Part shown: piece after piece, positions 9,144-36,980 of the stretch
How positions within the stretch are numbered: position 1 is the stretch's first letter
How the letters are laid out: every line of letters starts with the position of its first letter
Assembly (NCBI GenBank): GCA_903847605.1
Contig: CAINED010000013.1
Coordinates: forward strand, 439,000-502,999
From: an uncultured Hyphomicrobiales bacterium
GTDB lineage: Bacteria; Pseudomonadota; Alphaproteobacteria; Rhizobiales; Beijerinckiaceae
Length of the DNA: 64,000 bases
Reading direction: 5' to 3'
Notes under the pieces: model-generated
Seen by the model: the letters and a program-made list of their open reading frames with translations, nothing else
Told to the model about the DNA's origin: nothing
The model's database searches: none
Program-made: the position numbers and the translations under genes

Positions 9144-9413
9144 ATGTCGATGACGGATTTCGAACGTATGCTGTCTGCGGTTCTGCCTGCCACGGGCCGA
9201 ACGTCGCTGACGCTCACTGAATTTCCGCGCGGCGACGACAGTCTTACGCAGATTCTCGAGAAGGCGATTCAACTCGGCAATCGCCGCAGTTCGCGTCTGA
9301 CCGAAATCTATCTGCCGATGCGCGAATATCCGTCCATGGGCGCGAGCTTCTGGCACGTTCCCGTGCAGGACAGCGGCACGCAGGATGTCGTGCGTCTCGT
9401 CTTCGAGAACTGA
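9144..9413 (+). CDS. Small hypothetical protein (89 aa)
   Basis: I do not recognise the family. The frame starts MSMTDFERMLSAVLP, with a G-rich ribosome-binding-like stretch (TTCGGGGG) just upstream, and has no signal peptide or membrane segment, so it is presumably cytoplasmic. It is mixed alpha/beta in appearance, with a conserved-looking IYLPMREYPSMGASFWHVP stretch. It follows the cellulose operon after a 220-bp gap that contains a 6-bp hairpin (8967-8981) and no clear promoter, and it ends two bases before the stop of the convergent molybdoenzyme gene. Codon use resembles that of neighbouring real genes. A role linked to cellulose is possible only by position. Confidence 0.55.
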   Translation: MSMTDFERMLSAVLPATGRTSLTLTEFPRGDDSLTQILEKAIQLGNRRSSRLTEIYLPMREYPSMGASFWHVPVQDSGTQDVVRLVFEN

Positions 9414-9415: not shown

Positions 9416-11782
9416 TTAATTACCGGCCCTTTTCCGAGCGTCTTGTATTGCATGCCACACGCGCGCAGGCGTAACAGGCATGTCCATGTGTTCGATTCCA
9501 TAACTTGCAAGCGCATCGCTGACAGCGTTGACTATGGCCGATAGCGCCGGCGTCGTGCCGCCTTCGCCGCCCGCCTTGATGCCGAGGGGATTGGTCGGCG
9601 AGAGAACCTGCGCAATTTCGGTGCGGAACATCGGAAAGGCGTCGGCGCGCGGCATGCCGTAATCCATAAAGGAGCCGGCAACAGGTTGCCCGCTTGAAGG
9701 ATCGAGCGCGCAAAGCTCCCACATCGCCTGTCCAACGCCTTGCACGATTCCGCCATGCGTCTGGCCATGTACGATGAGCGGATTGATGCAGCGGCCGACA
9801 TCGTCCACCGCGGCGTAGCGCGTCAATTCGACATGGCCGGTGTCAGGATCGACTTCCACTTCGCAGATAGCGCAGCCGTTCGGGAATACGGGCTCGTGCA
9901 TCTCGTTGTCGGTGACGACGGCAAGGCCGTCGACAAGATCCCCGGGCAATTTTTGTTTCGCTGCCTCGCGCGCCAATTCGAACATGTCGAAGGAGTGGTT
10001 GGTTCCTTGCAAGCTGAAACGCCCATCGCTCCATTCGACATCTGCTGGCTTCGCATCGAACAGATGCGCCATGACCGCCTTGCCTTTTGCAACGAGTTCC
10101 CTTGCGCCTTTTGACATGACAGTCGCCGCATGACGCATGGAGCGGCCGGAATGCGTGCCGCCGCCGAGACGCACGATCTTCGTGTCGCCCATGACGACAT
10201 CGATATCATCGACCCGCAAATGGATCAGGTCCGCAAGCACCTGCGAGAAACTTGTTTCGTGTCCCTGTCCGCTCGGCTGTGTGCCGATGACGAGCGTAAC
10301 ACGCCCTCCCGGCTGGACAGTTATTTCCGCGCGCTCTTTCGGCGACCCGATGGAGGATTCGACATAGTGCGCGAGGCCGATGCCTGCGAGCTTGCCGCGC
10401 TTGGCAGCGTCGCGCTTGCGCCTGGTAAAGCCATTCCAGTCGGAAATCTCCATGGCGAGATCAAGCTGGTTTTCGTATTCGCCACTGTCGTAGGTAGCGC
10501 CGACTGCATTTGTGTAGGGCATCTGGCGCGGCTTCACGAGATTCTTGCGGCGCAGCGCAATGCGATCGAAGCCCAGACGTCGTGCAGCAACGTCGATGAT
10601 CCGCTCGATGGCGAAATTCACTTCAGGCCGGCCCGACGAACGATAGGCCTGGGTCGGCATTGTATTCGTAAACACGGCGCGGGCGCGCAACGTCGCAACA
10701 GGAATATGATACGAGCCTGTGATCAGTCCGGCTCCCTTGCCGAGCGGCGAAAGCGACACGCAGCGCGCACCGACATTGCTGATATTGTCGGCGCGAAAGG
10801 CGAGAAACTTGCCATCTTTGCGCAAAGCCAGCTCGACGCGGGTGAGAAGGTCGCGGCCCTGATAATCGGTGAGCAGACTTTCATAGCGGGAGGATACGTA
10901 TTTGACGGGAAGGCCGAGTTTCTGCGACGCCCAGAGTACAAGACCATATTCGACATAGACTCTGTTTTTGGCGCCGAAATTGCCGCCGACGTCGAAAGTC
11001 ATCACGCGCAGTCTGGCGGGATCGATCTTGAGAACCGACGCAATCTCGTTCTTCTGCCGCACAGCGCCGCCGCCGCCGACATAAAGCTCGCATTCGCCGG
11101 TTTGCGGATCGCAGAAGCCGAGCGCCGCGCGCGGCTCCATGGCTGCCGCCGTCACGCGAGGAATATGTATATCCATCTTCACGACATGATCGGCGGCGGC
11201 GAAGGCGGCCGCGGTCGCGGCCTCGTCGCCAAAGGATGAATCCACGAGGACATTGTGCGCGACTTCGTTCCACACAGAGGGCGCACCGGCTTTAATGGCG
11301 TCTTCCTGACCGAGAACGAAAGGCAGTTCTTCCCATTCGATTTCCACGGCGGCCGCTGCATCCTGCGCTTGCCATTCGGTTTCGGCGACAACCATGGCGA
11401 CGGCTTCGCCCACATGCCGGGCCTTGTCTGCAGGAAGCAGGAGATGCGGACCGATGAAAATCGCCGAGCCGCCGGGGCCCGTCAGTTTCATGTCATATTT
11501 GGTTTTCGGGATGGGATCGTGCGGGATCGCGCCCAGGCCATTCGCTTCACAATCCGCGCCGGTGAAGACGCCCAATACGCCGGGCATGGTCAGTGCTTTT
11601 TCCTTGCGGATCGCAACGATGCGAGCATGCGGATAGGGCGAGCGCGCCATGGCCGCCCAGACTTCGCCGGGTAGTGAGAAGTCGCCGGTGAAGCGCCCCT
11701 GGCCCGTAATGAGCCGGTCATCTTCCTTGCGACGAAGCGGCTGGCCAATGTTCCGGATGTCCAGAAATTCGGGCTTGTTCAT
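9416..11782 (-). CDS. Xanthine dehydrogenase/CoxL-family molybdopterin-binding subunit (solitary)
   Basis: About 788 residues, the normal length of the molybdenum cofactor-binding large subunit of the xanthine oxidase family, which hydroxylates or oxidises aromatic heterocycles, aldehydes, CO or aryl-CoA substrates. Start ATG at 11782 has AGGAAA in front and opens MNKPEFLDIRNIGQPL. Family features seen: GRFTGDFSLPGEVWAAMARS near the N-terminus, EPRAALGFCDP, AYRSSGRPE (the active-site loop), GTQPSGQGHETSFSQV, and the C-terminal GGEGGTTPA containing the expected catalytic glutamate. The loop is not the AYRCSFR of true form I CO dehydrogenase, so CO oxidation is unlikely. No [2Fe-2S] or FAD subunit gene lies beside it, which is unusual. 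It is divergent from ubiD. Confidence 0.85.
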   Translation of the reverse strand: MNKPEFLDIRNIGQPLRRKEDDRLITGQGRFTGDFSLPGEVWAAMARSPYPHARIVAIRKEKALTMPGVLGVFTGADCEANGLGAIPHDPIPKTKYDMKLTGPGGSAIFIGPHLLLPADKARHVGEAVAMVVAETEWQAQDAAAAVEIEWEELPFVLGQEDAIKAGAPSVWNEVAHNVLVDSSFGDEAATAAAFAAADHVVKMDIHIPRVTAAAMEPRAALGFCDPQTGECELYVGGGGAVRQKNEIASVLKIDPARLRVMTFDVGGNFGAKNRVYVEYGLVLWASQKLGLPVKYVSSRYESLLTDYQGRDLLTRVELALRKDGKFLAFRADNISNVGARCVSLSPLGKGAGLITGSYHIPVATLRARAVFTNTMPTQAYRSSGRPEVNFAIERIIDVAARRLGFDRIALRRKNLVKPRQMPYTNAVGATYDSGEYENQLDLAMEISDWNGFTRRKRDAAKRGKLAGIGLAHYVESSIGSPKERAEITVQPGGRVTLVIGTQPSGQGHETSFSQVLADLIHLRVDDIDVVMGDTKIVRLGGGTHSGRSMRHAATVMSKGARELVAKGKAVMAHLFDAKPADVEWSDGRFSLQGTNHSFDMFELAREAAKQKLPGDLVDGLAVVTDNEMHEPVFPNGCAICEVEVDPDTGHVELTRYAAVDDVGRCINPLIVHGQTHGGIVQGVGQAMWELCALDPSSGQPVAGSFMDYGMPRADAFPMFRTEIAQVLSPTNPLGIKAGGEGGTTPALSAIVNAVSDALASYGIEHMDMPVTPARVWHAIQDARKRAGN

Positions 11783-11818
11783 CGAGCGTTTCCTGTGCGC
11801 CTGGTGAGGCCGGGCTAT

Positions 11819-11856
11819 GGTTGCTCCGCTACAGGATGGTCTGTATGAACGCAACC
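11819..11856. promoter_or_regulatory. Nested 38-bp dyad in a divergent promoter region (putative operator)
   Basis: Between the molybdoenzyme gene (start 11782, leftward) and ubiD (start 11891, rightward) two inverted repeats share exactly one centre (between 11837 and 11838). The inner one is TACAG (11830-11834) with CTGTA (11841-11845); the outer one is GGTTGC (11819-11824) with GCAACC (11851-11856). Two arms separated by about one helical turn on each side suit a dimeric or tetrameric regulator governing both transcripts. No regulator gene is next to it. The symmetry is seen; the operator role is inferred. Confidence 0.4.
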
Positions 11857-11890
11857 AATCGAGGACGACAGCGGGAGCGGAACGGCATAG

Positions 11891-13549
11891 ATGGCAAGCG
11901 AACTGTCAAATGCGCCCGGCGACTTTCAGGCACATCTCGCGCTGCTGGAGCGGAAAGGGCTGCTCGTTCGCATCGACCGCCCGATCTGCAAGGATACCGA
12001 GATTCATCCGCTGATGCGCTGCCAGTTCCTCGGCAATTATCCCGAGAGCGAACGTCGCGCCTTCATGTTCACCAATGTCCATGGCGCGAAGGGCGAAAAA
12101 TACGACATGCCCGTCGTGGTCGGCGCGCTTGCGGCTTCCAGCGAAATCTACGCCATGGGCATGGGCGTTCCGGTTGCAAAGCTGGCGGATGCGTGGATCG
12201 GGGGTATTGCCAATCCTGTCGAGCCTGTGCTGGTCGATGACGCGCCCTGCCACGAGGTCGTGATCACAGGCGACGAACTGACCAAACCCGGCGGCGGTCT
12301 CGACCGGCTTCCCATTCCCATCTCGACGCCCGGATTCGATGCGGCGCCCTATCTGACGGCGACGCTCTGCGTGACGAAGGATCCGGAATCCGGCATCCGG
12401 AACATGGGCACTTATCGCGCGGGGTTGAAAGCGCGCGACAGGCTTGGCGTGCGCATGGCGTCGCGGCTTTCGGGCGCTGGCGGCTATGCGCACTGGCTGA
12501 AATACCAGAAGCTCAAACAGCCGATGCCGATCGCCATCGTCGTCGGCTGTGCGCCGGTTGTGCTTTTTACCGGGCCGCAAAAGCTTGCAACGGATCAGGA
12601 CGAAATGGCCGTCGCCGGCGGTCTCGCCGGTCGTGCGATGCGTGTGACGAAAGCCAAGACTGTCGATCTCGAAATACCCGCCGATGCGGAAATCGTCGTC
12701 GAAGGTTTGATCGATACGGATATGTTGGAACCAGAAGGTCCGTTTGGCGAAAGCCACGGCCACATCGCGCTCGAGGACTACAACATGTCCATGCGCGTGA
12801 CGGCGATCACGATGAAGAAGAAGCCCGTCTTTGCCAGCGTCCTCAGCGAAGTCACGCCGTCCGAGTCGAGCATACTCAAGAAATCCGCCTACGAGGCGCT
12901 CTTCCTGCAACATCTCAGGCATCATCTCGACATCAAGGGCATTCGTAATGTCGTGATGCACGAGCCGCTGACGAATTTACGTAAAGTGATCTTCCTGCAG
13001 TTCGCGCATGGCGCGCAGAAGACCGAAGTGTGGCGCGGCCTGCAGGGCGCTTCGACCCTGCAAGCGCAATGCGGCAAGATCGTCATAGCCGTTTCCGAAG
13101 ACATCGACGCCCTCAACACCGACGCTATCTTCTGGTCGCTCGCTTACAGGGCCGATCCCGTTGCGGATACGCAGCTTATTCCCCACCGCGCGGGCGGACA
13201 CGGACCCAAGGCTGGCGCGGGCAGCGGCGACTCAACCATGCTGATCGATGCGACGCTGAAACACCCGACATCGCCGCTCGCCCTGCCGGCGAAACCGTTC
13301 ATGGAAAACGCGCAAAATATCTGGAACGAACTACGCACGCAGCACAATCTGCCGCCGGTCAGCATGAAAGCCCCATGGCACGGCTACGATCTCGGCGATT
13401 GGGCGACGGAGTGGCAGGCTTTCGCCGACAACGCCACGAAAGGCGATTGGGAATTGAATGGCCTCAACACATTCGCGCGCCGCCGCGCCGGTCTCAAGCC
13501 GGAAACCCCAGTGCGCAATGTGGAAAAGCCTGATGCAAGCAAGCATTGA
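11891..13549 (+). CDS. UbiD-family prenylated-FMN (de)carboxylase
   Basis: Cytoplasmic non-oxidative decarboxylase, about 552 residues. UbiD-family enzymes use prenylated FMN, made by UbiX, to decarboxylate (or carboxylate) aromatic, heteroaromatic or unsaturated acids. The key active-site residues are visible: the arginine in NMGTYR (Arg176) and the EGPFGE motif, whose two glutamates (Glu282 and Glu287) match the Glu277/Glu282 spacing of the fungal Fdc1 enzyme. The ATG at 11891 has GGAGCGG upstream. It heads a rightward run with two binding proteins, a hydrolase, an SDR and a TauD-type oxygenase, so a catabolic rather than ubiquinone role is likely. No UbiX gene is in the window, so the cofactor would have to come from elsewhere. 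The substrate is unknown. Confidence 0.88.
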   Translation: MASELSNAPGDFQAHLALLERKGLLVRIDRPICKDTEIHPLMRCQFLGNYPESERRAFMFTNVHGAKGEKYDMPVVVGALAASSEIYAMGMGVPVAKLADAWIGGIANPVEPVLVDDAPCHEVVITGDELTKPGGGLDRLPIPISTPGFDAAPYLTATLCVTKDPESGIRNMGTYRAGLKARDRLGVRMASRLSGAGGYAHWLKYQKLKQPMPIAIVVGCAPVVLFTGPQKLATDQDEMAVAGGLAGRAMRVTKAKTVDLEIPADAEIVVEGLIDTDMLEPEGPFGESHGHIALEDYNMSMRVTAITMKKKPVFASVLSEVTPSESSILKKSAYEALFLQHLRHHLDIKGIRNVVMHEPLTNLRKVIFLQFAHGAQKTEVWRGLQGASTLQAQCGKIVIAVSEDIDALNTDAIFWSLAYRADPVADTQLIPHRAGGHGPKAGAGSGDSTMLIDATLKHPTSPLALPAKPFMENAQNIWNELRTQHNLPPVSMKAPWHGYDLGDWATEWQAFADNATKGDWELNGLNTFARRRAGLKPETPVRNVEKPDASKH

Positions 13550-13562
13550 GAGGAGCGGAACG

Positions 13563-14591
13563 ATGCGAAAGATCCTTCTGGCGCAAGCAGCCAGCGCTGC
13601 ATTTGCTTTGTCTGCCACTCTCTCGGCACAAACTGCCTCCGCAGATCCCATCGCCGATTTTTACAAGGCGAGGGGCTTGCGCATCATGCTCGGCCATCCG
13701 CCCGGCGGCTCCTACGATCTTTATGCGCGGCTCGCGGCCGATCACTTTCGCCGATTCATTCCGGGCGCGCCGACGATCGTTGTCGAACACAAGCCGGGCG
13801 GCGGCGGCGTTGTCGCGACGGCGTTCTTTTACGCGAATGCGCCGCGCGACGGTTCGGTGATCGCGCTTTTCCCTGAAACCATCGTGCATACGCAATTGCT
13901 CGAGCCCGAAGTCGGCAAGTGGAAAGTGCAGGACATGCGCTATGTCGGCTCGTTCGCGCCTGTCAATGCGGCCTTCGTTTTTCGCAAGGGAGCGCCGGCG
14001 CTCGCGCCGGACCAGATGCGCAACATGAAGACGCGCGCCGGTTGCACCGGCCGCAATTCGCAGAGCTATCAATATCCCGCTTTGCTGAAGTCGCTGGACG
14101 GCTTCCAGTTCGAAATCATCTGCGGCTACAAGGGTTCGCAGGAATCCGTTCTGGCGATGGAGCGCGGCGAGGTCGATTTCGTCTCGTCAGCCTGGAACTC
14201 GTGGCGCGCCACGCACAAAGGGCCGATTGGCGCCAGGGAGATGATCGTCGCCATTCAGGCCGGGTTGCGGCGTGAGAAGGAACTCTCGAATGTTCCGCTG
14301 ATGCAGGAACTCGTCGCCGATCCGCAGAAGAAAAAGGTGATCGAATTCGCTTCTGCGGGCGCTGCCATCGGCCGGGCATTGATAACGCCGCCAAATACGC
14401 CCGCCGACAAGCTTGCAGCCTTGCGGCAAGCCTTCGACAGGATGGTCGTGGACAAGGAGTTTCTGGCGGACGCCGGGCGACGCCAGCTTGTCATCGATCC
14501 CGACGATGGCGCCGCCATCGACAAAGTTGCGCAGGAGATCGCTGCCGCGCCGAAGGATCTGATCGACGCCGCTTCGGCCGCGATGAAATAG
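13563..14591 (+). CDS. Periplasmic TctC/Bug-type solute-binding protein
   Basis: About 342 residues, extracytoplasmic receptor of the tripartite tricarboxylate transporter type, which binds small carboxylates. ATG at 13563 follows GAGAGGAGCG and opens a signal peptide (MRKILLAQAASAAFALS, cleavage near ASADP). Mature-protein landmarks: PPGGSYDLYARLAADHF and the phosphate/carboxylate-loop-like KPGGGGVVATAFFY, then CGYKGSQESVLAMERGEVD. The ligand-binding family fold is clear, but this branch differs from the canonical PFPAGGxxD Bug sequences. The TctA/TctB membrane subunits are absent nearby, so it must use a distant permease or act as a sensor. It starts 13 bases after ubiD, so it probably delivers the ubiD-pathway substrate. 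Confidence 0.85.
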   Translation: MRKILLAQAASAAFALSATLSAQTASADPIADFYKARGLRIMLGHPPGGSYDLYARLAADHFRRFIPGAPTIVVEHKPGGGGVVATAFFYANAPRDGSVIALFPETIVHTQLLEPEVGKWKVQDMRYVGSFAPVNAAFVFRKGAPALAPDQMRNMKTRAGCTGRNSQSYQYPALLKSLDGFQFEIICGYKGSQESVLAMERGEVDFVSSAWNSWRATHKGPIGAREMIVAIQAGLRREKELSNVPLMQELVADPQKKKVIEFASAGAAIGRALITPPNTPADKLAALRQAFDRMVVDKEFLADAGRRQLVIDPDDGAAIDKVAQEIAAAPKDLIDAASAAMK

Positions 14592-14602
14592 GACTTCAGG
14601 AT

Positions 14603-15397
14603 ATGACATCTGCAAAAACGAGAGACGGCGTAACCATAGGCTATTCGCTGGTCGGCGACGCCGGCGCCAGGAACAAGGTGGCGCTCATTCATTCGCTGGC
14701 GATGGATCGCGAATTCTGGCGGCCGGTCGCGGAGAGCATTTCAGATCGTTGCGTCGTCGCCATCATCGACTGCCGCGGCCACGGCGCATCGGACAAACCG
14801 AAGGGGCCGTACACGACGGCGCTCTTCGCCGACGATCTCGCCGATGTCATGGACCATCTCGGCTGGGAGAAGGCCGTCGTGGCCGGCGCTTCGATGGGCG
14901 GCACCGTCGCCATCACATTCGGCCAAAAATATCCGCAACGCACGGCGGGGCTCGGCCTCTTCGATACGACTGCATGGTATGGCGAAACCGCGCCGAAGGA
15001 CTGGGCGGAACGGGCGCAGAAAGCGGCCGAAGAAGGACTCGCCAGCCTCATCGGCTTTCAGAAGACGCGCTGGTTCTCCGACGCCTTTCGCGAGCAACAC
15101 GCGGATGTCGTCCAGTCCTGCATCGATGTGTTTCTCAGGAACGATGCCGCCGCCTATGTGGCGACCTGCAACATGCTGGGCGCAACGGACTTGCGTGCCG
15201 GACTTTCCGCCATGAAGATGCCGGTGCGCATTGCTGTCGGGGAAGAGGACTATGCGACACCCGTCGCCATGTCGCAGTCGCTCAAGGCCGCTTTGCCGCA
15301 GGCGTCGCTCAGTGTCATCAAGGGTGGCCGGCATCTTACGCCGCTTGAAGTCCCCGATGTCATTGCCTCGGAAATCCGTGCACTTTTGACCGATTGA
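14603..15397 (+). CDS. Alpha/beta-hydrolase (3-oxoadipate enol-lactonase-like)
   Basis: About 264 residues, cytoplasmic. ATG at 14603 with TTCAGGA in front. The alpha/beta-hydrolase fold is shown by the oxyanion region LIHSLAMDREFW, the strand-turn DCRGHGASDKP, the nucleophile elbow GASMGG (Ser97), a late acidic GEEDYAT and a C-terminal histidine in GGRHLTP. The sequence resembles 3-oxoadipate enol-lactonase (PcaD/CatD), which would place it in the lower beta-ketoadipate route, but carboxylesterase or C-C hydrolase activity cannot be excluded. It lies 11 bases after the binding-protein gene, in the same presumed operon as ubiD. Confidence 0.8.
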   Translation: MTSAKTRDGVTIGYSLVGDAGARNKVALIHSLAMDREFWRPVAESISDRCVVAIIDCRGHGASDKPKGPYTTALFADDLADVMDHLGWEKAVVAGASMGGTVAITFGQKYPQRTAGLGLFDTTAWYGETAPKDWAERAQKAAEEGLASLIGFQKTRWFSDAFREQHADVVQSCIDVFLRNDAAAYVATCNMLGATDLRAGLSAMKMPVRIAVGEEDYATPVAMSQSLKAALPQASLSVIKGGRHLTPLEVPDVIASEIRALLTD

Positions 15398-15436
15398 ACG
15401 GGCTTGGGCGCAACCACTTGCGCCCTGCTGCCCGTT
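15397..15436 (+). terminator. Long bipartite hairpin after the hydrolase gene
   Basis: An inner perfect stem GGGCGCAA / TTGCGCCC (15406-15413 with 15418-15425, loop CCAC) is extended by an outer perfect stem AACGGGC / GCCCGTT (15397-15403 with 15430-15436). It starts at the stop codon of the hydrolase gene. No T-tract follows, so it may be a rho-assisted terminator, a 3'-end stabiliser or an attenuator before the SDR gene. Confidence 0.4.
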
Positions 15437-15491
15437 GCGACATCATTCTCTCGGGACGCATGCGACAGATCATGCGCCAGGGAGGAATGAC

Positions 15492-16286
15492 ATGGCGGGT
15501 TTCACGGCAGGTTTCGACGTCACGACCGCATTTTCGATGAAGGACAAGGTTGTCATCGTCACGGGCGGCGGCACGGGCATCGGCAAGGTCTATAGCCAAA
15601 GGCTTGCCGAAGGCGGGGCGAAAGTGGTGCTCGCCGATATCGCAGCGGAGGCTTCGGACAAGCTCGCAGCCGACATAACCGCTAAAGGCGGCGCCTGCAT
15701 CTCGGTGCCCACGGATATCTCCGATCCCGACGCCGTGCAGAAAATGGTCGACGCCACGATCAAGGCCTATGGCCGTATCGACGGGCTCGTCAACAATGCA
15801 TCGCTCATGAGCGTGCTGGAGCGCGGCGACTGGTTCAAAATCGACGTGAAAGAATGGGACCGCGTGATGGAAGTCAATCTGCGCGGTATTTTCGTGTGTT
15901 GCCGCGCTGTCTATCCGCATATGAAAGCGCAGGGCGGCGGGCGCATCGTCAACATTTCCTCCGGCCGTTTCTGGCTCGGCAGCCCCAATCGTCTGCACTA
16001 TTCGACATCGAAGGCCGGCGTCATCGGGCTGACGCGCTCGCTGGCGAGCGAACTCGGCGACGACAATATCGGCGTCAACGCGATTACGCCCGGCTTTACG
16101 CTGAGCGAAACCCAGCTTGCCACTTCGTCGTCGAATTATGTCGCCGGACGCGATCTCAATCGCTGTTTCAAACGCCCGCAAACGCCCGACGATCTCGTCG
16201 GTGCGGTGTGGTTCCTGTTGTCGGACGCCAGCGGATTCATGACGGGGCAAACTTTGAACGTCGATGGCGGGCAGGCCTATCATTAG
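15492..16286 (+). CDS. Short-chain dehydrogenase/reductase (SDR)
   Basis: About 264 residues, cytoplasmic NAD(P)-dependent oxidoreductase. The ATG at 15492 has a strong GGGAGGAA site. Classical SDR elements: cofactor motif TGGGTGIG (residues 24-31), NNAS at 101-104, catalytic Ser157 in NISSG, Tyr170 and Lys174 in YSTSK, and C-terminal FMTGQTLNVDGGQ. An aspartate after the second beta strand (LADIA) suggests NAD preference. It lies in the ubiD-led cluster, so it probably oxidises a diol or alcohol intermediate; the substrate is not recognisable. Confidence 0.85.
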   Translation: MAGFTAGFDVTTAFSMKDKVVIVTGGGTGIGKVYSQRLAEGGAKVVLADIAAEASDKLAADITAKGGACISVPTDISDPDAVQKMVDATIKAYGRIDGLVNNASLMSVLERGDWFKIDVKEWDRVMEVNLRGIFVCCRAVYPHMKAQGGGRIVNISSGRFWLGSPNRLHYSTSKAGVIGLTRSLASELGDDNIGVNAITPGFTLSETQLATSSSNYVAGRDLNRCFKRPQTPDDLVGAVWFLLSDASGFMTGQTLNVDGGQAYH

Positions 16287-16297
16287 GAGGCACGACG

Positions 16298-17158
16298 ATG
16301 GAAGCAGCCGAACAGACGGTTACCTTCGAACTTCTGAGCGCAACACTCGGTGCGCGGGTTCATGGCGTCGACCTGACCAGGGAGATCGACGAAGCCTGCG
16401 CGGAAACGCTGCGGCAAGGACTTGCAAAGCATATGGTACTCTGCGTCTCCGACCAGAAGATTTCGGGCGACGATCAGATCCGTTTCGCGCGCGTTTTCGG
16501 CAAGGCCGACGCGGATTTCGTCGGCAAGCCGTCGTTTCACGAGCAGGCGAGCGATGACGGTCCCGCCAAGCGCGGCGTGCTCTTCATTTCCAACATGAAG
16601 GAGGACGGCAAGAACGTCGGCGCATTGCCTGACGGCGAGTTGCAGTTCCATTCCGATGGCGCGCATCGCAAGTCGCCCTATCGCGCCACGACGCTTTATT
16701 CGATCAAAATACCCTCACGGGGCGGCGATACGAAATTCGCCAACATGGCTGCGGCATGGGATGCGCTGCCGCCGTCGTTGCAGGAGCGTCTTCTCGATTT
16801 GCGCGTTCACAATGTCTACGACACCCGGGCGCACTTGCGTTCGCAGACCGATGAGAACGACGACACTTTATCCAATGCCGTGCATCCGCTCGTGCAGACG
16901 CATCCCGACACAGGCCGCAAGTCTCTCTTTCTCAGCCGCCTCATGACGCGCAAGATCGTCGGCTGGGATCGCGCGGCCAGCGACGCCTTGCTCGATCAGC
17001 TTTTCGATCACATCGAGAAGCCCGAGTTCGTCTATGCGCACAAATGGCGGCTCGATGAAATTGTGATCTGGGACAATCGCAGCGTGAATCATGCACGCAG
17101 CGATTTTCCGCCAGAGGAAATACGGCACATGAGACGGGTGACCGTATCGGAGCCGTAG
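16298..17158 (+). CDS. TauD/TfdA-family Fe(II)/2-oxoglutarate dioxygenase
   Basis: About 286 residues. Family members hydroxylate substrates such as taurine, 2,4-D or other acids with 2-oxoglutarate and oxygen. The start at 16298 follows TAGGAGG, 11 bases after the SDR stop. The iron facial triad is present: His118 and Asp120 in FHSDGAH, and His265 in SVNHARSDF, with arginines (RHMRRV) near the end to bind 2-oxoglutarate. No signal peptide, hence cytoplasmic. Position between an SDR and a carboxylate-binding protein argues for a catabolic hydroxylation or ether/side-chain cleavage step. Confidence 0.87.
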   Translation: MEAAEQTVTFELLSATLGARVHGVDLTREIDEACAETLRQGLAKHMVLCVSDQKISGDDQIRFARVFGKADADFVGKPSFHEQASDDGPAKRGVLFISNMKEDGKNVGALPDGELQFHSDGAHRKSPYRATTLYSIKIPSRGGDTKFANMAAAWDALPPSLQERLLDLRVHNVYDTRAHLRSQTDENDDTLSNAVHPLVQTHPDTGRKSLFLSRLMTRKIVGWDRAASDALLDQLFDHIEKPEFVYAHKWRLDEIVIWDNRSVNHARSDFPPEEIRHMRRVTVSEP

Positions 17159-17187
17159 ATCAATCGTTGCATTCAGGGGAGGGAATG

Positions 17188-18201
17188 ATGACGAAAGCAA
17201 GAACAATAGTGGCGCTGGTTGCCGCATTGGTCTCATGTTCGGCATGGGCGCAGAGCGGCGATTTCTACAAGGGCAAGACGGTCAAGCTCGGCATTGCAGC
17301 GGGCCCCGGCGGCGGCTTCGATACGATCGCCCGGACCATCGGCGAATATCTCGGCCGTCATATTCCCGGCAATCCCGGCGTCGTGCCGGAAAACCGCATT
17401 GGCGCGGGCGGCCGCGTGATGGCGAATTGGCTGTTCAATGTCGCCGAGCGCGACGGGCTGCAAATCGGAATGCTCGGGCCGTGGTCCGTGTTCGAACCAT
17501 TCTGGGATCAGCCCGGCATCCAGTTCGAACCGGCGAAGTTCAACTGGCTGGTGAGCGCCAATCGCGAGGCCTCCAGTTGCATGTTCTGGAAAGGGCGCGG
17601 CGTCGACAGTTTCAAGGACATGCAGACGAAAGAATTGCGTGTCGGTTCGTATGGCCCGACATCGGCGCAGACGCAGGACGCTCTCGCGCTCAACGCCCTG
17701 CTCGGCACAAAGCTGAACATCGTGCACGGTTACAAAGGCACGAACGATACGATGCTCGCCGTCGAGCGCGGCGAACTCGAAGGCACCTGCGGCATCTGGG
17801 CGTCGAGCGCCATGTCCGCCTATTCGAGCCAGATTACGCGGGGCGACCTCAAGGTCGTCGTGCAACTCGGCTTCAACGATCACCCGGATTTCAAGGGGAT
17901 CGAAAATCCGATTGCGCGCGTCACCAATCCCGACGACCGCGCGGCGCTGAAACTGATCTTCGGCCAGCTCGATATCGCGCGTCCCTTCGCCGCGCCGCCG
18001 GGCGTGCCGGCCGATCGGGTGGCGATCCTGCGCAAGGCGTTCTGGGATACGTTGCACGATCCGGAACTGATCGCGACCGCGAAGAAACGCGGGCTCGATC
18101 TGCGTCCGCTGGAAGGCGAAAAGGTGCAGGCCTTCGTCGACGAAGTCTACAAGACGCCGAAATCCGCCATCGAACGCGCCAAGAAAATTCAGGGCTATTG
18201 A
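17188..18201 (+). CDS. Periplasmic TctC/Bug-type solute-binding protein
   Basis: About 337 residues; a second solitary receptor in this island. I prefer the ATG at 17188 because the GGAGG core (17178-17182) is then 5 bases away; an ATG at 17185 is adjacent. Signal peptide MTKARTIVALVAALVSCSAWAQS. Mature features: FYKGKTVKLGIAAGPGGGFD, NRIGAGGRVMANWLF and HGYKGTNDTMLAVERGELEG. The DFYKGKTV opening and YKGxxxxMLAVERGE block are shared with the binding proteins at 13563 and 50591, which form one subgroup distinct from the canonical one at 57465. No TctAB genes are adjacent. Confidence 0.85.
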   Translation: MTKARTIVALVAALVSCSAWAQSGDFYKGKTVKLGIAAGPGGGFDTIARTIGEYLGRHIPGNPGVVPENRIGAGGRVMANWLFNVAERDGLQIGMLGPWSVFEPFWDQPGIQFEPAKFNWLVSANREASSCMFWKGRGVDSFKDMQTKELRVGSYGPTSAQTQDALALNALLGTKLNIVHGYKGTNDTMLAVERGELEGTCGIWASSAMSAYSSQITRGDLKVVVQLGFNDHPDFKGIENPIARVTNPDDRAALKLIFGQLDIARPFAAPPGVPADRVAILRKAFWDTLHDPELIATAKKRGLDLRPLEGEKVQAFVDEVYKTPKSAIERAKKIQGY

Positions 18202-18206
18202 GACTG

Positions 18207-18229
18207 GCGGGCTGCGGTCTGCAGCCCGC
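18207..18229. terminator. Hairpin between convergent genes
   Basis: Perfect 9-bp stem GCGGGCTGC / GCAGCCCGC with a 5-base loop (GGTCT), located 5 bases after one stop and 12 bases before the other of two convergent genes. Probably a bidirectional terminator, although T-tracts are weak on both sides. Confidence 0.45.
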
Positions 18230-18240
18230 AAATTCTTCGC

Positions 18241-19236
18241 TCAGGTCTTCACGGAAGGGTTGATCCCTTCCGGGAAAATGTCCTCCGGCTTCACCAGCTT
18301 TTTCGCAATGCCCTGCTCGTAGGACCAGGTGAGGAAGGCTTCGAGCGTCTTGCGATTTTCTTCGATGCCGTAGGGATAAAAGTCGCCTTTGAAGAGATCG
18401 CGCATCTTCTCTGCGATATCGAGCATCCAGGGAATCGGATAACGGGAAACGCCGCCTTCGAGCATGCGATCGACAGCGCGTTTCCGCGATTCGTCGAAGG
18501 CAAGATAGAGATTGCGCGCGAGCCAGGGATATTCGTTCAGAATGTCGCGCCTCATAGCGATGACATGCATGATCGGGAAAACGCCGGTACGTTTGAAATA
18601 ATTCTCTTCCTCGGCGCGATAGTCCTGGAACAGGCGCACCATGTTCTTGTTGCCGGCCCGGAAGGGTTTGGGAATGGATGCGGTGAAGATCGCGTCGAGT
18701 TCACCTGATACGAGCATGTCGCTCAGCGTCTTGTCGTTGATCTGCGTGAGCTTCAGTCCGTTCGGCAGGTTGAGCGGAACCTTTTCGGTGCGGCCGACAT
18801 CTTCCGTGCCCGCCTGCACCCAGTCGATGCTCGTCAGCGGCACGCCGGCGTCATGCTGGAGCCAGCCGCGCGTATAAACCGCCGCCGTCTGCGCCCATTC
18901 CGGCACGCCGATGCGCTTGCCCTTCAGGTCCGCAGGCGACTTGATGCCTTTCGACGGATTCACATAGATCGAAGACAGGCGAAAGACCCGCGAGGCGAAG
19001 ACCGGCAGGCCGATAATGTCGGGGTTATCGGCCGTCACCTGCGCCGAGAACTTCGCGAAGGACATTTCGCTGACATGCCACTCGCGCCAGGCTGAGAAGC
19101 GGGTGAAGATTTCGTGGATGTCGAGTTCCATCCATGTGGGATCGATACCCTCGGCCTCGATCTTGCCCGATTTGAAATCGCGGAAATGATCGTAATCGCT
19201 CGTCGCGATGGTGACGTGAACCTTGCGCCCGGCCAT
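18241..19236 (-). CDS. 4,5-dihydroxyphthalate decarboxylase-like protein (NMT1/binding-protein fold)
   Basis: About 331 residues. The ATG at 19236 is preceded by GGGAGGA. There is no signal peptide (MAGRKVHVTIATSDYDHF), so although the fold is that of a periplasmic binding protein it should be cytoplasmic, as in the Pht5/OphD 4,5-dihydroxyphthalate decarboxylases. Sequence blocks typical of that family are present: SEMSFAKF, LPVFASRVFRLSSIYVN, DLKGKRIGVPEWAQTAAVY and IFPIMHVIAMRRD-like text near the centre. The known enzyme converts 4,5-dihydroxyphthalate to protocatechuate; here the substrate is uncertain. It is divergent from a VOC gene and close to UbiD, giving the island two unrelated decarboxylase types. 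Confidence 0.75.
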   Translation of the reverse strand: MAGRKVHVTIATSDYDHFRDFKSGKIEAEGIDPTWMELDIHEIFTRFSAWREWHVSEMSFAKFSAQVTADNPDIIGLPVFASRVFRLSSIYVNPSKGIKSPADLKGKRIGVPEWAQTAAVYTRGWLQHDAGVPLTSIDWVQAGTEDVGRTEKVPLNLPNGLKLTQINDKTLSDMLVSGELDAIFTASIPKPFRAGNKNMVRLFQDYRAEEENYFKRTGVFPIMHVIAMRRDILNEYPWLARNLYLAFDESRKRAVDRMLEGGVSRYPIPWMLDIAEKMRDLFKGDFYPYGIEENRKTLEAFLTWSYEQGIAKKLVKPEDIFPEGINPSVKT

Positions 19237-19376
19237 AAGTCCTCCCGTATTCTGCTTTGTCGTGAGGCGATAGCGCCTGCATCTGCGTCTGGCAAGCGCA
19301 GGGCGCAAATGCTAACCTGCGAAGGAGATCCGGCCAAGCCTCTGCGACGAGCGCCGGACCCGATCGGGAAGGACAG

Positions 19377-20189
19377 ATGGCGGCGCGCATAAACCACATG
19401 GCGATGAACAGCCCGCAATGGCACATGACCGCGAAATTCTACGAAGCGGTGTTCGGCTTGCGGCAATCGGGAAAGTCGAACAGGCCGCTCAACGGCGTTT
19501 CGGTCGGCGACGGTTATGTCGGTCTCAACATAAACCCGTTGCGCGACGGCTACGTCGGCGGTCTCGATCATTTTGGCATGGTGGTCGACAGTATCGAGGA
19601 TGCACGCGAGCGCATGGAAAAGAAATTCGCCGGGGCGGCCATCGTGAAGCGGCCGTCGACGCGGCCCTTTGCGCAATATTCCGCACACGATCCAGACGGC
19701 AATGTCTTCGATCTCGCCGAACCGAAAAGCAAGCTCAACGAAATCTATGCCGATCAACAGGCCGGCGGCTGGTCGCAGGAGCGCTATCTCAACAAGTTCG
19801 CGATACGGACGATGAACGCCGAACTCTGCGCGGAATTCTACCAGGAAGTCTTCGGCCTGCAGTTGCAGAATTCCGGCGCCGACAAGCCCGGCTGGCATCT
19901 CACTGATGGGCGCGTGACGCTGTCGATCCTTCCGTGGTCGATTCCGATCTTCGAAAATATTTCGATCAAGCGGCCCGGCCCGGATCATATCGGCTTTAGG
20001 GTCGAAAACCTCGATACGTTCAAGGCGCATTTGGAAGCGTGCGCGGGCGCGGTTTCCTATCTCGCGCCGATCCGTCTTGGCGGCAGCAAGGAAGCCGATG
20101 CGCGGCGCGATTTTCTCGCGCGCAGCGCGACCGGCAAGATGCAGATCTGCGATCCCAACGCCGTGTGGATCGACATCACCGACGAATGA
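19377..20189 (+). CDS. Two-module VOC-superfamily protein (extradiol dioxygenase/glyoxalase-like)
   Basis: About 270 residues made of two vicinal-oxygen-chelate modules (about 1-120 and 140-270). Module 1 keeps a plausible metal triad: His7 (INHMAM), His65 (GLDHFG) and Glu115 (FDLAEP). Module 2 has a histidine in GPDHIGF but no histidine at its first strand (KFAIRTMN). In type I extradiol ring-cleavage enzymes such as BphC the metal normally sits in the C-terminal module, so this is the reverse. Ring cleavage is suggested by the downstream C-C hydrolase 22 bases away. Start ATG at 19377 follows GGGAAGGA. Confidence 0.75.
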   Translation: MAARINHMAMNSPQWHMTAKFYEAVFGLRQSGKSNRPLNGVSVGDGYVGLNINPLRDGYVGGLDHFGMVVDSIEDARERMEKKFAGAAIVKRPSTRPFAQYSAHDPDGNVFDLAEPKSKLNEIYADQQAGGWSQERYLNKFAIRTMNAELCAEFYQEVFGLQLQNSGADKPGWHLTDGRVTLSILPWSIPIFENISIKRPGPDHIGFRVENLDTFKAHLEACAGAVSYLAPIRLGGSKEADARRDFLARSATGKMQICDPNAVWIDITDE

Positions 20190-20211
20190 CATGCGAACGC
20201 GGGAGGATAAC

Positions 20212-21078
20212 ATGGACGACGTTGCGCAAAAGGCCGGGATTTCCGAAAAGTCCATCACCGTCGATGGGTTGAACGTCCGCTATCTCGAAGCCGGCAGCGG
20301 GCATCCCGTGCTGATGTTGCATGGCGCATCGCTTGGATCGTCCTGCGACGTCTTCATCCGCAATATGGGTCCGCTGGCGAAAGCGGGATTCCGCGCCATC
20401 GCCTACGATCAGCCCGGCTTTGGATTGTCCGATACGCCGGCCGATCTTTCGACGCCCTATCGCCGGAAGTTTATTCCGAAACTCGTGGACGCGCTGGGCC
20501 TCGGCAAAGTTGCGCTCTTCGCGCATTCGCAATCGGGCTCGATGGCTTGGCAGCTCGCGCTCGAAATGCCGGAGCGCTACAGCCATCTCGTCGTGCTCGG
20601 CACCGGCAGCCTGCTGCCGCCGCTTGAAGAAAAGAAACAGGGTCTCGACGCTGCCGCGCAACAAAGGCTCGAACGGCGCATGGCTGCGAAAGAGCCTGAT
20701 ATCGAGGACACGCGCAAGCTGCTCGAAGCCAATCTCTTTCATCACGAATTGATCACCGACGAAGAACTGGCGCTGCGGCACTCGCGCAGCGTCGGTAAAG
20801 CGTTTGAAGCGTTTGTCGCGCGCAGCGAGCAGGAGGAGAATGCGCCGAAGAAGGCGAAGTCCGGACCGGAGCACTGGCAGCGCGTGGATGAGTTGAAGGT
20901 GCCTTCGATCCTGATCTACGGCCGCGAAGATCGCGCCAACGCCTATGAGCGCGTGACGATGTGGAAACAGAAACAGCCTTCGCTCAACCTGCACATCGTC
21001 AACGGCTGCAAGCATCTCGTGCCGTGGGATGCTGCCGACGAAGTCATGCGCCTTACAATCCCATTCATGAAAGCCTGA
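20212..21078 (+). CDS. Alpha/beta-hydrolase, meta-cleavage-product hydrolase-like
   Basis: About 288 residues. ATG at 20212 with GGGAGG seven bases upstream. Fold markers: LMLHGASLGSS (oxyanion region), YDQPGFGLSD, nucleophile elbow AHSQSG (Ser106), acid in YGREDRAN and histidine in GCKHLVPWD. These match the MhpC/BphD group that hydrolyses the vinylogous 1,5-diketones made by extradiol cleavage. The gene directly follows the VOC-type gene, the usual order of ring cleavage then hydrolysis. The elbow is A-H-S-Q-S instead of the usual G-x-S-x-G, which small-residue replacements allow. Confidence 0.78.
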   Translation: MDDVAQKAGISEKSITVDGLNVRYLEAGSGHPVLMLHGASLGSSCDVFIRNMGPLAKAGFRAIAYDQPGFGLSDTPADLSTPYRRKFIPKLVDALGLGKVALFAHSQSGSMAWQLALEMPERYSHLVVLGTGSLLPPLEEKKQGLDAAAQQRLERRMAAKEPDIEDTRKLLEANLFHHELITDEELALRHSRSVGKAFEAFVARSEQEENAPKKAKSGPEHWQRVDELKVPSILIYGREDRANAYERVTMWKQKQPSLNLHIVNGCKHLVPWDAADEVMRLTIPFMKA

Positions 21079-21079
21079 T

Positions 21080-22084
21080 CTACAGCGGCGATATGCGGCT
21101 TGCAGCTTTCTGCTGTCGCAGCACGTCTTCCAGCAGCTTCACGCAGGCATAGACAGCGTTGATTGCCGGCGTCGCGACGCCCGTGATGGACCCGAGTTCG
21201 ATCACCGAACCGACAAGCGCATCGATCTCGCTGATGCGTCCGGCCTCGATGTCCTGCAACATCGATGTCTTGTGTTCGCCGACGGCCTGCGCGCCCGCGA
21301 TACGTTTTTCCAGCGGAATGCGAAAGCGTATGCCCAGCGCTTCGCCCACGCTTTGAGCTTCGCGCATCATGTCCGCCGCCAGCGCGCGCGTCTGCGGATA
21401 AAGGCAGATATGCGCGAGTGTCGCGTGAGTGAGTGCGCTGATCGGATTGAAGCTGAGATTGCCCCACAGCTTCGTCCAGATCTCGGCGCGTATGTCGCTG
21501 ACGATGGGCGCACGGAACCCTGCTTTCAAAAAAACCTCTGAGACCTTTTCGATACGCTCCGTCTTTGCGCCGTTTATTTCAGAAAGCGAAAAGCGATTGC
21601 CCTCGATCAGCTTGATCACGCCGGGCGCCGCGATCTCTGCGGCGGGATAAACGACGCTGCCGATCGTGCGCTCTGCCGGCAAATGGTCGGCGACGACATT
21701 GCCGGGATCGACACTCGCAAGCCTGCGTCCATCATGTTCGCCGCCGTGGCCGATAAAATACCACCAGGGAATACCGTTCTGCGCTGTGAGCACCATGGTC
21801 TCGTCGTGAAATAGCGCAGGCAGTTCTCGCACCACCTCGGCGACCTGATGCGCCTTCATGCCGAGAATGACGAGGTCCTGCTGCCCGACATCGGCAATGC
21901 GCTGGCTCGCCGCGACGCGAGCAACGATGTCGTCTTGTCCGTCCTCGATGAGTTTCAATCCATGATTGCGGATCGCTTCGAGATGCGCGCCACGCGCGAT
22001 GACGCTGACGTCTTCGCCGGCATGGGCGAGCCGCGCCGCCAGCAGGCCACCGATGGAGCCTGCGCCGATTACGCAGATGCGCAT
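21080..22084 (-). CDS. 2-dehydropantoate 2-reductase (ketopantoate reductase) family protein
   Basis: About 334 residues, NADPH-dependent reductase of the PanE/ApbA family. The ATG at 22084 opens MRICVIGAGSIGG, the Rossmann dinucleotide motif GAGSIGG. Further family marks: KLWGNLSFNPISALTHAT, which carries the conserved KLxxN catalytic region, and an all-alpha C-terminal half. It is a candidate for the pantothenate pathway reductase, but it sits at the end of a catabolic island with no other pantothenate genes, so it may reduce a different 2-oxo acid there. It converges on the hydrolase gene with a 1-base gap. Confidence 0.82.
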   Translation of the reverse strand: MRICVIGAGSIGGLLAARLAHAGEDVSVIARGAHLEAIRNHGLKLIEDGQDDIVARVAASQRIADVGQQDLVILGMKAHQVAEVVRELPALFHDETMVLTAQNGIPWWYFIGHGGEHDGRRLASVDPGNVVADHLPAERTIGSVVYPAAEIAAPGVIKLIEGNRFSLSEINGAKTERIEKVSEVFLKAGFRAPIVSDIRAEIWTKLWGNLSFNPISALTHATLAHICLYPQTRALAADMMREAQSVGEALGIRFRIPLEKRIAGAQAVGEHKTSMLQDIEAGRISEIDALVGSVIELGSITGVATPAINAVYACVKLLEDVLRQQKAASRISPL

Positions 22085-22155: not shown

Positions 22156-22232
22156 TGGCGGTCCCGACAGGATTCGAACCTGTGACCTTCGGTTTAGGAA
22201 ACCGCTGCTCTATCCTGCTGAGCTACGGAACC
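22156..22232 (-). tRNA. tRNA-Arg, anticodon CCU
   Basis: The leftward transcript starts GGTTCCG at 22232, pairs with CGGGACC to make a 7-bp acceptor stem (one T-G pair), and carries D-arm GCTCAGCAGGATAGAGC, anticodon loop TTCCTAA (anticodon CCT), and T-arm with GGTTCGAATCC. The 3' CCA is encoded in the DNA (22156-22158), after a G discriminator. The 27-43 pair of the anticodon stem appears mismatched (G-A). It reads AGG arginine codons, rare in this G+C-rich genome. Confidence 0.93.
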
Positions 22233-27790: not shown

Positions 27791-29404
27791 ATGCTGCCGG
27801 ACATCAGGAATTACGACGCGCTCTACCAGGCTTTTCGCTGGCAGATTCCCCAGGACTTCAACATTGCGACGGTCTGCTGCGACCGCTGGGCAGACACGCA
27901 ACCCGGCAGCGCCGCCATACTCGATGTTCGCGGCGACCAGACGATCACGGTGACCTATGCAGCCTTGCGGCAGCGCGCGAGCCGTTTCGCCAACATGCTG
28001 GCGGCGCGAGGCGTCGCGCGGGGCGATCGCATCGGGATCATGCTGCCGCAAGGCAGCGATGTCGCGGCGGCGCATCTCGGCGTTTACAAGCTCGGCGCGA
28101 TTGCGGTGCCGCTGGCCATCCTCTTCGGCGTCGACGCGGTCGAATACCGGCTGGAGGACGCTGGCATCAAGGTGCTGATCACCAATGCCGACGGCGTCGC
28201 GAAGCTGCGCAAGATCGAACGACTGCCGCCGACACTGCAGGCGGTATTTTCCGCTGATGGCGGCGACGGCGATATTCTCGATCTCGAGCGCGAGCTTGCC
28301 GCGGTCTCAGATCAGGCTGCAACGGCTGCGACGACGCCCGACGACCCTGCCATGATGGTCTATACGTCGGGCACGACCGGATCGCCGAAAGGCGCTCTTC
28401 ACGGTCATCGCGTGCTGCTGGGCCATCTGCCGGGCACGCAGTTCACGCATGATTTTCTCCCCCAGCCGGGCGACCGCATGTGGACACCGGCGGACTGGGC
28501 CTGGGCGGGGGGACTGCTCAACATTCTTCTGCCCGCGCTTTATTTCGGCCTGCCTGTCATTGCGCGCAAGTTCGAGCGCTTCGATGCGGAAGCCGCCTTC
28601 GATCTGATCGCGCGCACAGGAATTCGCAACGCCTTCATTCCGCCGACGGCCCTGCGCATGTTGCGCTCGGTGGAAAATCCCCGCGCGCGTTTCAATCTCA
28701 ATCTGCGCTCCATCGCATCGGGCGGCGAGTCGCTCGGCGCGGAAGTCTATGAATGGGGACGGAGCGCGCTGGGGCTCGTCGTGAACGAGTTCTATGGCCA
28801 GACCGAATGCAATCAGGTGCTCGGCTCCTGCGGCGCTGCAGGCCTCAACAAACCCGGCGCCATCGGCAAGCCCGTGCCGGGTCATCGCGTCGCCATCGTC
28901 GATTTCGAGGGCCGTCCATGCAAGCCCGGCGAGACCGGACAGATCGCGATGCTGCGGCCCGACCCCATCATGTTCCTCGGTTACTGGAACCGGCCGGAAG
29001 CCACGCGCGACAAGTTCATCGGCGACTGGATGACGACAGGCGATCAGGGCGTGATGGACGATGAGGGCTTCTTCAGTTTCATCGGCCGCGACGACGATGT
29101 CATTACTTCGGCGGGCTATCGCATCGGTCCCGGCGAGATCGAGGATTGCATCATCAGGCATCCCGCCGTCGCCATCGCCGCTGCGGTCGGCAAGCCGGAC
29201 CCGCTGCGCACGGAGATCGTGAAAGCCTATATCCAGCTGCGGCAGGGCTATGAGGCGAGCGATGCGCTGGCGGCCGAAATCCAGTCCTTCGTGCGCACGC
29301 GACTATCGGCGCATGAATATCCGCGCGAGATCGCCTTCATCGACGACATGCCCCTGACGACAACGGGCAAGATCATCCGCCGCGAATTGCGCGCGCGTGG
29401 ATGA
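27791..29404 (+). CDS. AMP-forming acyl-CoA synthetase (acetyl-CoA synthetase/MACS-like)
   Basis: About 537 residues, ANL superfamily. It activates a carboxylic acid to its CoA thioester with ATP. Signature motifs: YTSGTTGSPKG (191-201, the phosphate loop), FYGQTECNQVLGSCG near the middle (adenine pocket), TGDQGVMDDEG, GRDDDVITSAGYRIGPGEIE (hinge and A8 motif), and TTTGKIIRREL with the C-terminal catalytic lysine. The profile is that of medium-chain or acetoacetyl/propionyl-type synthetases; substrate chain length cannot be read reliably. It stands divergent from the ParA-like pair and could feed the thiolase at 34343. Confidence 0.9.
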   Translation: MLPDIRNYDALYQAFRWQIPQDFNIATVCCDRWADTQPGSAAILDVRGDQTITVTYAALRQRASRFANMLAARGVARGDRIGIMLPQGSDVAAAHLGVYKLGAIAVPLAILFGVDAVEYRLEDAGIKVLITNADGVAKLRKIERLPPTLQAVFSADGGDGDILDLERELAAVSDQAATAATTPDDPAMMVYTSGTTGSPKGALHGHRVLLGHLPGTQFTHDFLPQPGDRMWTPADWAWAGGLLNILLPALYFGLPVIARKFERFDAEAAFDLIARTGIRNAFIPPTALRMLRSVENPRARFNLNLRSIASGGESLGAEVYEWGRSALGLVVNEFYGQTECNQVLGSCGAAGLNKPGAIGKPVPGHRVAIVDFEGRPCKPGETGQIAMLRPDPIMFLGYWNRPEATRDKFIGDWMTTGDQGVMDDEGFFSFIGRDDDVITSAGYRIGPGEIEDCIIRHPAVAIAAAVGKPDPLRTEIVKAYIQLRQGYEASDALAAEIQSFVRTRLSAHEYPREIAFIDDMPLTTTGKIIRRELRARG

Positions 29405-29416
29405 AGTCTCTTGCTC

Positions 29417-30712: not shown

Positions 30713-30849
30713 GACCCACCTGACGCAGTCCGCACCGGCGTTAAGCCAATGTGAACCATCACTGTCCCGATCCGGGACCGGAAGCGGCCGGGCGCGGCCG
30801 CTCGTGGGTTAACGAACAATTAATGGGCCAACGGCGGACTCGCGGCGGA

Positions 30850-33305: not shown

Positions 33306-33525
33306 TCGTAATGCCTTTGTCCCTGCGTTGGCGCTTTCCCGAAGTCGGCGCAGCGTCAGCGAATGAACCCAGTCCCTTTCCCTGAGCCCCTTATGCCATG
33401 GCCGGCAGGCTTGCGCCACCCTTGTGGCGCTCTTGCAGCGAAGCTCGAAGACCATTTCAATCATCGGGTTAATTACGGCCGGCGAGGCGATTCGTCACCC
33501 CGGTTCTCAATTGAAGGTCAAAGGC

Positions 33526-34260: not shown

Positions 34261-34342
34261 CGCTTCGGCCTGAGTCGAAAGCATGGTCGCATTTCGTCCC
34301 GCTCATGGATATTATCGGGACGAACGGCGAGGAGATTTCCCA

Positions 34343-35509: not shown

Positions 35510-35538
35510 ATTTCAAGTATGAAGTGAGGTAACGCGTC

Positions 35539-35994: not shown

Positions 35995-36062
35995 TGTTAG
36001 AACCTGAAGGGCCTTCATGATCCCATTCATTCCATATTTGCAACAACAAGTAACGTTAAGCC

Positions 36063-36962: not shown

Positions 36963-36980
36963 TTCTGCGCTCTCTCGCCA

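Follow-up and report, generated by a model that had tools for sequence, protein, structure and literature searches.

Two separately conserved catabolic modules are joined beside a tRNA-Arg gene in an uncultured Hyphomicrobiales bacterium

Do eleven neighbouring catabolic genes encode one pathway, or do they belong to separate sets that have met in a few genomes only? This question is raised by a gene cluster at positions 9416-22084 of a 64,000-nucleotide stretch from an uncultured Hyphomicrobiales bacterium of the Beijerinckiaceae (contig CAINED010000013.1 of assembly GCA_903847605.1, positions 439,000-502,999 of the forward strand); this whole stretch is called the window here. Every gene that the initial annotation had named in the cluster is present and open: the list of open reading frames (ORFs) with their translations gives eleven intact catabolic ORFs ahead of a tRNA-Arg gene, with families assigned by Pfam and NCBIfam (Table 1). 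They belong to two sets. Module A, a widespread set, consists of the CoxL-like large subunit of a molybdenum (Mo) hydroxylase, a UbiD-family decarboxylase, a TctC-type solute-binding protein (TctC1) and an enol-lactonase-like (PcaD-like) hydrolase. Module B is a second, genus-level set and comprises an SDR, a TauD-type dioxygenase, a second TctC-like protein (TctC2), a relative of 4,5-dihydroxyphthalate (DHP) decarboxylase, a VOC protein, a BphD-like hydrolase and a PanE-type oxidoreductase. We give slightly less than an even chance to the reading that these two older catabolic modules were joined once to form the cluster, with A serving an hmf-like route free of coenzyme A (CoA) for an oxygen heteroaromatic acid and B being a second aromatic-acid set.

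Modules A and B were found together only in the window and in two related metagenome-assembled genomes (L009 and L010) among the loci examined. Ten genes lie in the same order in all three, with identities to the window of 71-84% for DNA and 68-97% for protein, and since this order is kept in two relatives at such DNA identity, the association of the genes is not due to chance. The joining is a single event and not a recurring pairing; a quick tree built from 81 UbiD rows places the A+B loci in one clade (SH-aLRT 99) that is nested within loci with module A only. We compared the window with 68 other UbiD loci, comprising 42 from a scan of genome contigs with the window UbiD, six plasmid loci and 20 loci of the genus, the latter selected mostly for high UbiD identity; neighbours were scored within 8 kb of UbiD, and 38 of the 68 loci have at least 5 kb on both sides. 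Module B genes were located near UbiD at two of them, L009 and L010, and no DHP-decarboxylase, VOC or BphD-like gene was detected at the other 66 with the thresholds used, many of the contigs being short. Viewed from module B, 16 of the 18 other VOC-ortholog regions are without UbiD; one of these 16 (L115, genome G159) has UbiD on the same contig, about 16 kb from the VOC gene. A conserved neighbourhood of the UbiD and the DHP-decarboxylase-like gene, which the initial annotation had named as a check, exists in three species but not at most UbiD loci. Its opposite, scattered subsets in relatives, does not describe the picture either, which lies in between: relatives retain two coherent subsets.

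These counts bear on the proposal that all the genes form a single linear route for a carbocyclic aromatic compound with two or three carboxyl groups, with hydroxylation, two decarboxylations (UbiD and the DHP-decarboxylase-like protein), extradiol cleavage by the VOC protein and hydrolysis by the BphD-like and enol-lactonase-like hydrolases. The catabolic gene types and the conserved neighbourhoods agree with one pathway, but common descent does not: A and B lie apart in most of the relatives that we compared, and a single ancestral pathway was rejected. The two decarboxylases, assigned before to one pathway, belong to different, separately conserved sets that meet at just two of the 68 other UbiD loci. 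Furthermore, UbiD (at least 75% identity) is present in only eight of the 19 genomes with a VOC ortholog, and none of the eleven cluster proteins matches a Rieske dioxygenase family.

The ring opening step of such a linear pathway raises a further problem. The VOC protein has the two-domain VOC fold of the catechol-dioxygenase type along its whole chain, as do catechol 2,3-dioxygenase and BphC among the type I extradiol enzymes; the label "extradiol-type" holds for the fold. A BphD-like hydrolase is encoded next to it. Type I extradiol dioxygenases have a 2-His-1-Glu metal site in the C-terminal domain. When columns were matched to the dioxygenases by strand position, columns 140, 204 and 266 of the window protein contained Lys, His and Asp, which is not the canonical site, and Lys140 occupies the place expected for a metal His in 18 of 18 aligned orthologs, including the window. 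An invariant His-His-Asp set, His7, His65 and Asp112, is located in the N-terminal domain, that is, in the other domain than the canonical site. Because Lys replaces the expected C-terminal His ligand, ring opening through extradiol cleavage by this protein appears doubtful from the alignment; a literature search on VOC metal sites gave no match. Taken with the locus counts, we consider the linear pathway unlikely.

It might also be possible that the joining is a chance neighbourhood beside the tRNA gene, in which the modules act independently. The modules are apart in most relatives examined and the tRNA-Arg gene lies about 70 bases past the cluster, which would fit; however, two relatives keep the gene order although their DNA differs from that of the window by 16-29%, and L009 and L010 share the genes of the left flank, arguing against a recent insertion. 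In the window this flank holds a small ORF (9144-9413), a BcsN-like gene for cellulose synthesis and a TPR gene. A chance neighbourhood is very improbable in our view. Likewise, recent insertion of an island at the tRNA is unlikely, since the DNA identity is similar over the ten genes and the left flank matches in both relatives. A recent transfer of the SDR gene, considered for its protein identity of 96-97%, was rejected because the DNA is just 82-84% identical. The nuclease gene to the right of the tRNA has at most 52% identity and is of no use as an anchor. The cluster is thus an old one that has been maintained, a point in favour of some shared function of A and B.

The arrangement within the window is consistent with joint expression. 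The CoxL-like gene is divergent from UbiD, with which a run of six co-directional genes begins (UbiD-TctC1-PcaD-SDR-TauD-TctC2; gaps of 13, 11, 94, 11 and 29 bases, lengths that depend on the start codons chosen). Since these genes share a strand and are separated by 11-94 bases only, co-transcription is likely, and judged from the ORF coordinates it would cross the A/B border between PcaD and SDR.

Table 1. Genes of the cluster and its right boundary in the window
Feature	Position	Strand	Module	Evidence
Mo hydroxylase large subunit, CoxL-like	9416..11782	-	A	Pfam/NCBIfam: Ald_Xan_dh_C, MoCoBD_1, MoCoBD_2
UbiD-family decarboxylase, prFMN-dependent by family	11891..13549	+	A	UbiD Pfam, 168.8 bits
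TctC1, TctC-type solute-binding protein	13563..14591	+	A	PF03401, 31.2 bits (cut-off 27)
PcaD-like (enol-lactonase-like) alpha/beta hydrolase	14603..15397	+	A	TIGR02427, 198 bits, under cut-off
SDR	15492..16286	+	B	Pfam; protein identity 96-97% in L009/L010, 76-78% in L115 and L117
TauD/TfdA-type 2-oxoglutarate dioxygenase	16298..17158	+	B	PF02668, 210 bits
TctC2, TctC-like solute-binding protein	17188..18201	+	B	no Pfam match; 34% to annotated TctC of L081
DHP-decarboxylase-like protein	18241..19236	-	B	NMT1, 23.1 bits; PDB 9jp7 match
Two-domain VOC protein, extradiol-dioxygenase fold	19377..20189	+	B	VOC/glyoxalase, 54.5 bits
BphD/HsaD-like alpha/beta hydrolase	20212..21078	+	B	NCBIfam, 112 and 107 bits
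Ketopantoate-reductase-like (PanE) oxidoreductase, last cluster gene	21080..22084	-	B	NF005089, 447 bits (cut-off 223)
tRNA-Arg(CCT), right cluster boundary	22156..22232	-		ARAGORN

Module A reaches far beyond the three species. UbiDs of the window's branch were found in 46 of the 51 genomes of the genus (E 1e-100) and also in records that carry the labels Rhizobiales, Burkholderiales, Sphingomonas and Acidobacteria. Plasmids of the cultured Sinorhizobium fredii encode a homolog with 65% identity. Using identity thresholds of at least 58% for the window-type CoxL, 55% for a second CoxL type, 40% for PcaD-like and 45% for TctC1-like proteins, we found the window type near UbiD at 34 of the 68 loci, the second type at 14 and both together at none. 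PcaD-like genes were present at 23 loci, UbiX at 25, CoxS at 38, CoxM at 16, GntR at 12, an NMT1-type binding protein at 26 and a TctC1-like gene at 14. Among the 38 loci with long flanks the numbers were 19 for the window-type CoxL, 11 for the second type, 15 for PcaD-like genes and one for module B; at the 20 genus loci, CoxL always adjoins UbiD, a PcaD-like gene is found at 12, CoxS at 10 and module B at none.

The two CoxL types keep different company. Of the 34 window-type loci, 19 have a lactonase-like gene close to UbiD; the figure is none of 14 for the second type and four of 20 for loci with neither. Searches with one query protein each for CoA ligase, the CoA transferase CaiB and ECH (E 1e-8) gave no match at any window-type locus; among the second-type loci they matched none for the ligase, two for CaiB and 12 for ECH. 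By these counts, lactonase-like hydrolases accompany the window-type CoxL, and CoA enzymes accompany the second type. Succinate-semialdehyde dehydrogenase is encoded at 11 of the 14 second-type loci (the L035 copy reaches 733 bits against a cut-off of 646) and 11 second-type Burkholderiales loci carry two UbiDs, together suggesting that the end product there is succinic semialdehyde. A recurring cluster of two UbiDs, UbiX, the second-type Mo hydroxylase, an ECH-family protein and succinate-semialdehyde dehydrogenase was seen in Paraburkholderia, Caballeronia and Burkholderia (L025, L028, L029, L032-L035, L041-L044; full gene lists were inspected for L035 and L044 only). We also observed a TIGR02444/DUF2390 protein that recurs near the UbiX, PcaD-like or GntR genes of module A (L048 by family search, L081 and L082 by annotation, L014 and L015 by eye).

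What might module A do? Residues R176, E282 and E287 of the window UbiD, which we take to be the Arg-Glu-Glu set that binds prenylated flavin mononucleotide (prFMN) in UbiD enzymes, do not vary across the 19 aligned rows, and one UbiX, unlinked to the cluster, was found in the same genome. With prFMN from this UbiX, the UbiD would take a carboxyl group off the ring. The Mo hydroxylase, whose small and medium subunits would come from genes at other sites, would add a water-derived oxygen to an electron-poor ring carbon, and the resulting enol-lactone would be opened by the PcaD-like hydrolase. One example would be furan-2,5-dicarboxylate to 2-furoate, to 5-hydroxyfuroate (5-oxo-4,5-dihydrofuran-2-carboxylate) and to 2-oxoglutarate. 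On chemical grounds the ring should hold oxygen, because UbiD, Mo hydroxylase and lactonase would otherwise give no oxygenase-free ring opening; an oxygen heteroaromatic acid in an hmf-like route without CoA would be the best fit. Products of module B may feed or extend A in the three species.

Among known systems, the chemistry of module A would by analogy most resemble the hmf furan-dicarboxylate pathway without its CoA steps. The hmf cluster serves the degradation of hydroxymethylfurfural, furan-2,5-dicarboxylate and 2-furoate, for example in Pseudomonas umsongensis GO16, and Table 2 of the source lists the Mo enzyme hmfABC, the UbiD hmfF, the cofactor-making accessory psfC, a putative hydrolase "hyd" and the CoA enzymes hmfD and hmfE (PMC12064950). 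A UbiD with a cofactor-making partner, a Mo hydroxylase and a putative ring-opening hydrolase are common to both. In contrast, CoA ligase (HmfD) and CoA hydrolase (HmfE) families are absent from the eleven window proteins, the hydrolase is PcaD-like, and the UbiD is from a different branch without the furan-selective His. Of the three subunits of such a Mo enzyme, the large one is encoded in the cluster, and the other two may be encoded elsewhere in the genome. A more specific claim takes A to be a widespread pathway, not described before, that converts furan dicarboxylate or furoate without CoA (UbiD, Mo hydroxylase, PcaD-like hydrolase, to 2-oxoglutarate), with a CoA-type Burkholderiales sister (two UbiDs, ECH, succinate-semialdehyde dehydrogenase) that removes both carboxylates to give succinic semialdehyde; we regard this as possible, if rather doubtful. 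The open-licence literature contained no CoA-free furan route and no UbiD/Mo-hydroxylase/lactonase cluster among the matches listed, which is weak evidence of absence.

Several observations weigh against the hmf-like reading of module A. The nearest PDB match of the window UbiD is 6h6x (153 bits), which we take to be HmfF, and position 296 of its chain presumably corresponds to H297 of HmfF. This His has been reported as key for furan specificity (PMC7976604). Ser326 of the window UbiD is aligned to it, and Ser is invariant in 19 of 19 UbiDs of the branch; membership of the window UbiD in HmfF was rejected on this pocket residue. No lactonase-like gene was found within 8 kb at 15 of the 34 window-type loci; some of these are on short contigs, but L081 and L083-L085, on Sinorhizobium and Neorhizobium plasmids, have full flanks. 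Some A loci hold other genes, such as an Ldh_2 dehydrogenase and another hydrolase at L139. Finally, many of the UbiD loci come from near relatives, so the counts are not independent.

The substrate of module A could also be an N-heteroaromatic carboxylate of the pyridine, pyrrole, quinoline or indole type, the PcaD-like protein then opening a lactam or having another role. Such acids are classic substrates of Mo hydroxylases and some UbiDs, and UbiDs for indole- and pyrrole-carboxylate are described in PMC8988006 and PMC7976604. Among solved structures the CoxL-like subunit matches a CO dehydrogenase large chain best (462 bits), followed by 6-hydroxypseudooxynicotine dehydrogenase (380 bits) and quinoline 2-oxidoreductase (333 bits). 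The recurring hydrolase, however, is enol-lactonase-like and not an amidase, and visual inspection of the genes listed for L030 and L048 showed no amidase-like one, although no search was aimed at amidases. We judge a nitrogen ring quite unlikely. Aerobic CO dehydrogenase has the loop AYxCSFR; the window subunit has AYRSSGR and reaches 481 bits against the NCBIfam cut-off of 991 for that enzyme.

The predicted lactonase step draws on the PcaD-like hydrolase, whose NCBIfam score is below the equivalog cut-off of 255.85. Its top PDB match is the 3-oxoadipate enol-lactonase PcaD (2xua, E 9.5e-32), and W134, R137, R156 and W157 are invariant in the aligned rows and the same in 2xua. This enol-lactonase-like hydrolase is a likeness to the protocatechuate/beta-ketoadipate pathway, but the ring-cleaving pcaGH as well as pcaB and pcaC are absent among the cluster proteins.

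No small or medium subunit gene lies beside the window CoxL-like gene. The genome encodes 12 CoxL-type large subunits including this one (E < 1e-150), and CoxS and CoxM adjoin just one of them (on C12); two (on C80 and C72) are close to a contig end. A second CoxS-CoxM pair, unlinked to the window, is found by itself on a contig of 8.8 kb (C2:5676-6927). It is a possibility that one pair is shared by several large subunits. In the relatives L146, L147, L148 and L150, CoxS and CoxM come after UbiD. These subunit observations cover contigs of the genome, including the regions L160:5670-6942 and L167:5358-9140.

Module B has its own distribution. VOC orthologs (67-79% identity) occur in 18 other genomes, giving 19 of the 51 genus genomes with the window's; two of the other loci, L107 and L108, are contigs of L010 and L009. 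Near these 18 VOC genes are the DHP-decarboxylase-like gene (11 loci), the BphD-like hydrolase (11), PanE (7), the SDR (4, at least 70% identity), TauD (3, at least 60%) and UbiD (2). At least one of decarboxylase, hydrolase and PanE was present at 15 of the 18, and none at L109, L111 and L121. In L117 the genes follow the window order PanE-hydrolase-VOC-decarboxylase-TauD-SDR, with no UbiD in that region; L115 has the same order minus TauD.

The DHP-decarboxylase-like protein (NMT1 cut-off 20.5 bits) matches PDB 9jp7, named 4,5-dihydroxyphthalate decarboxylase, almost over its whole length (E 3.1e-65, residues 28-346 of the 355-residue ORF), suggesting kinship with the phthalate 4,5-dioxygenase pathway; unlike in that pathway, there is no phthalate dioxygenase among the cluster proteins and the SDR is not assigned as dihydrodiol dehydrogenase. 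A signal peptide was not seen by eye. Class II aldolase-type genes adjoin the genes of paralogs of this protein or lie close to them (L159:6925-8648 and L169:16015-19877; Pfam match in L159 only). The scores of the BphD/HsaD-like hydrolase are far under the cut-offs of 400 and 462 bits. H118, D120, H265 and R276 of TauD are invariant in the window and five other rows, two of which (L107, L108) repeat L010 and L009. Two carboxylate-binding proteins had been proposed: TctC1 is confirmed by Pfam, whereas TctC2 has no match in Pfam or NCBIfam searches, yet it shows 34% identity across 326 residues (E 1.6e-55) to an L081 protein that is annotated as a binding protein of a tripartite tricarboxylate transporter. 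Its identity is 28% to TctC1 and 70% to the L009/L010 copies.

Elsewhere in the window, a CoA-ligase-like gene at 27791-29404 was seen by eye. It opens a second possible aromatic region (27791-38862), likewise recognised by eye, with thiolase- and hydroxyisobutyrate-dehydrogenase-like genes and Rieske dioxygenase alpha and beta genes. A small gene pair at 41611-42338 resembles the VapB/VapC toxin-antitoxin, also by eye.

Besides the single joining of A and B in the window, the most useful outcome is that module A is a widespread uncharacterised unit. If the proposed chemistry is true, a short CoA-free pathway of three steps would suggest a function that can be tested for a pair of decarboxylase and hydroxylase that is common but uncharacterised, and it would be relevant to furandicarboxylate, presented in PMC12064950 as a plastic monomer.

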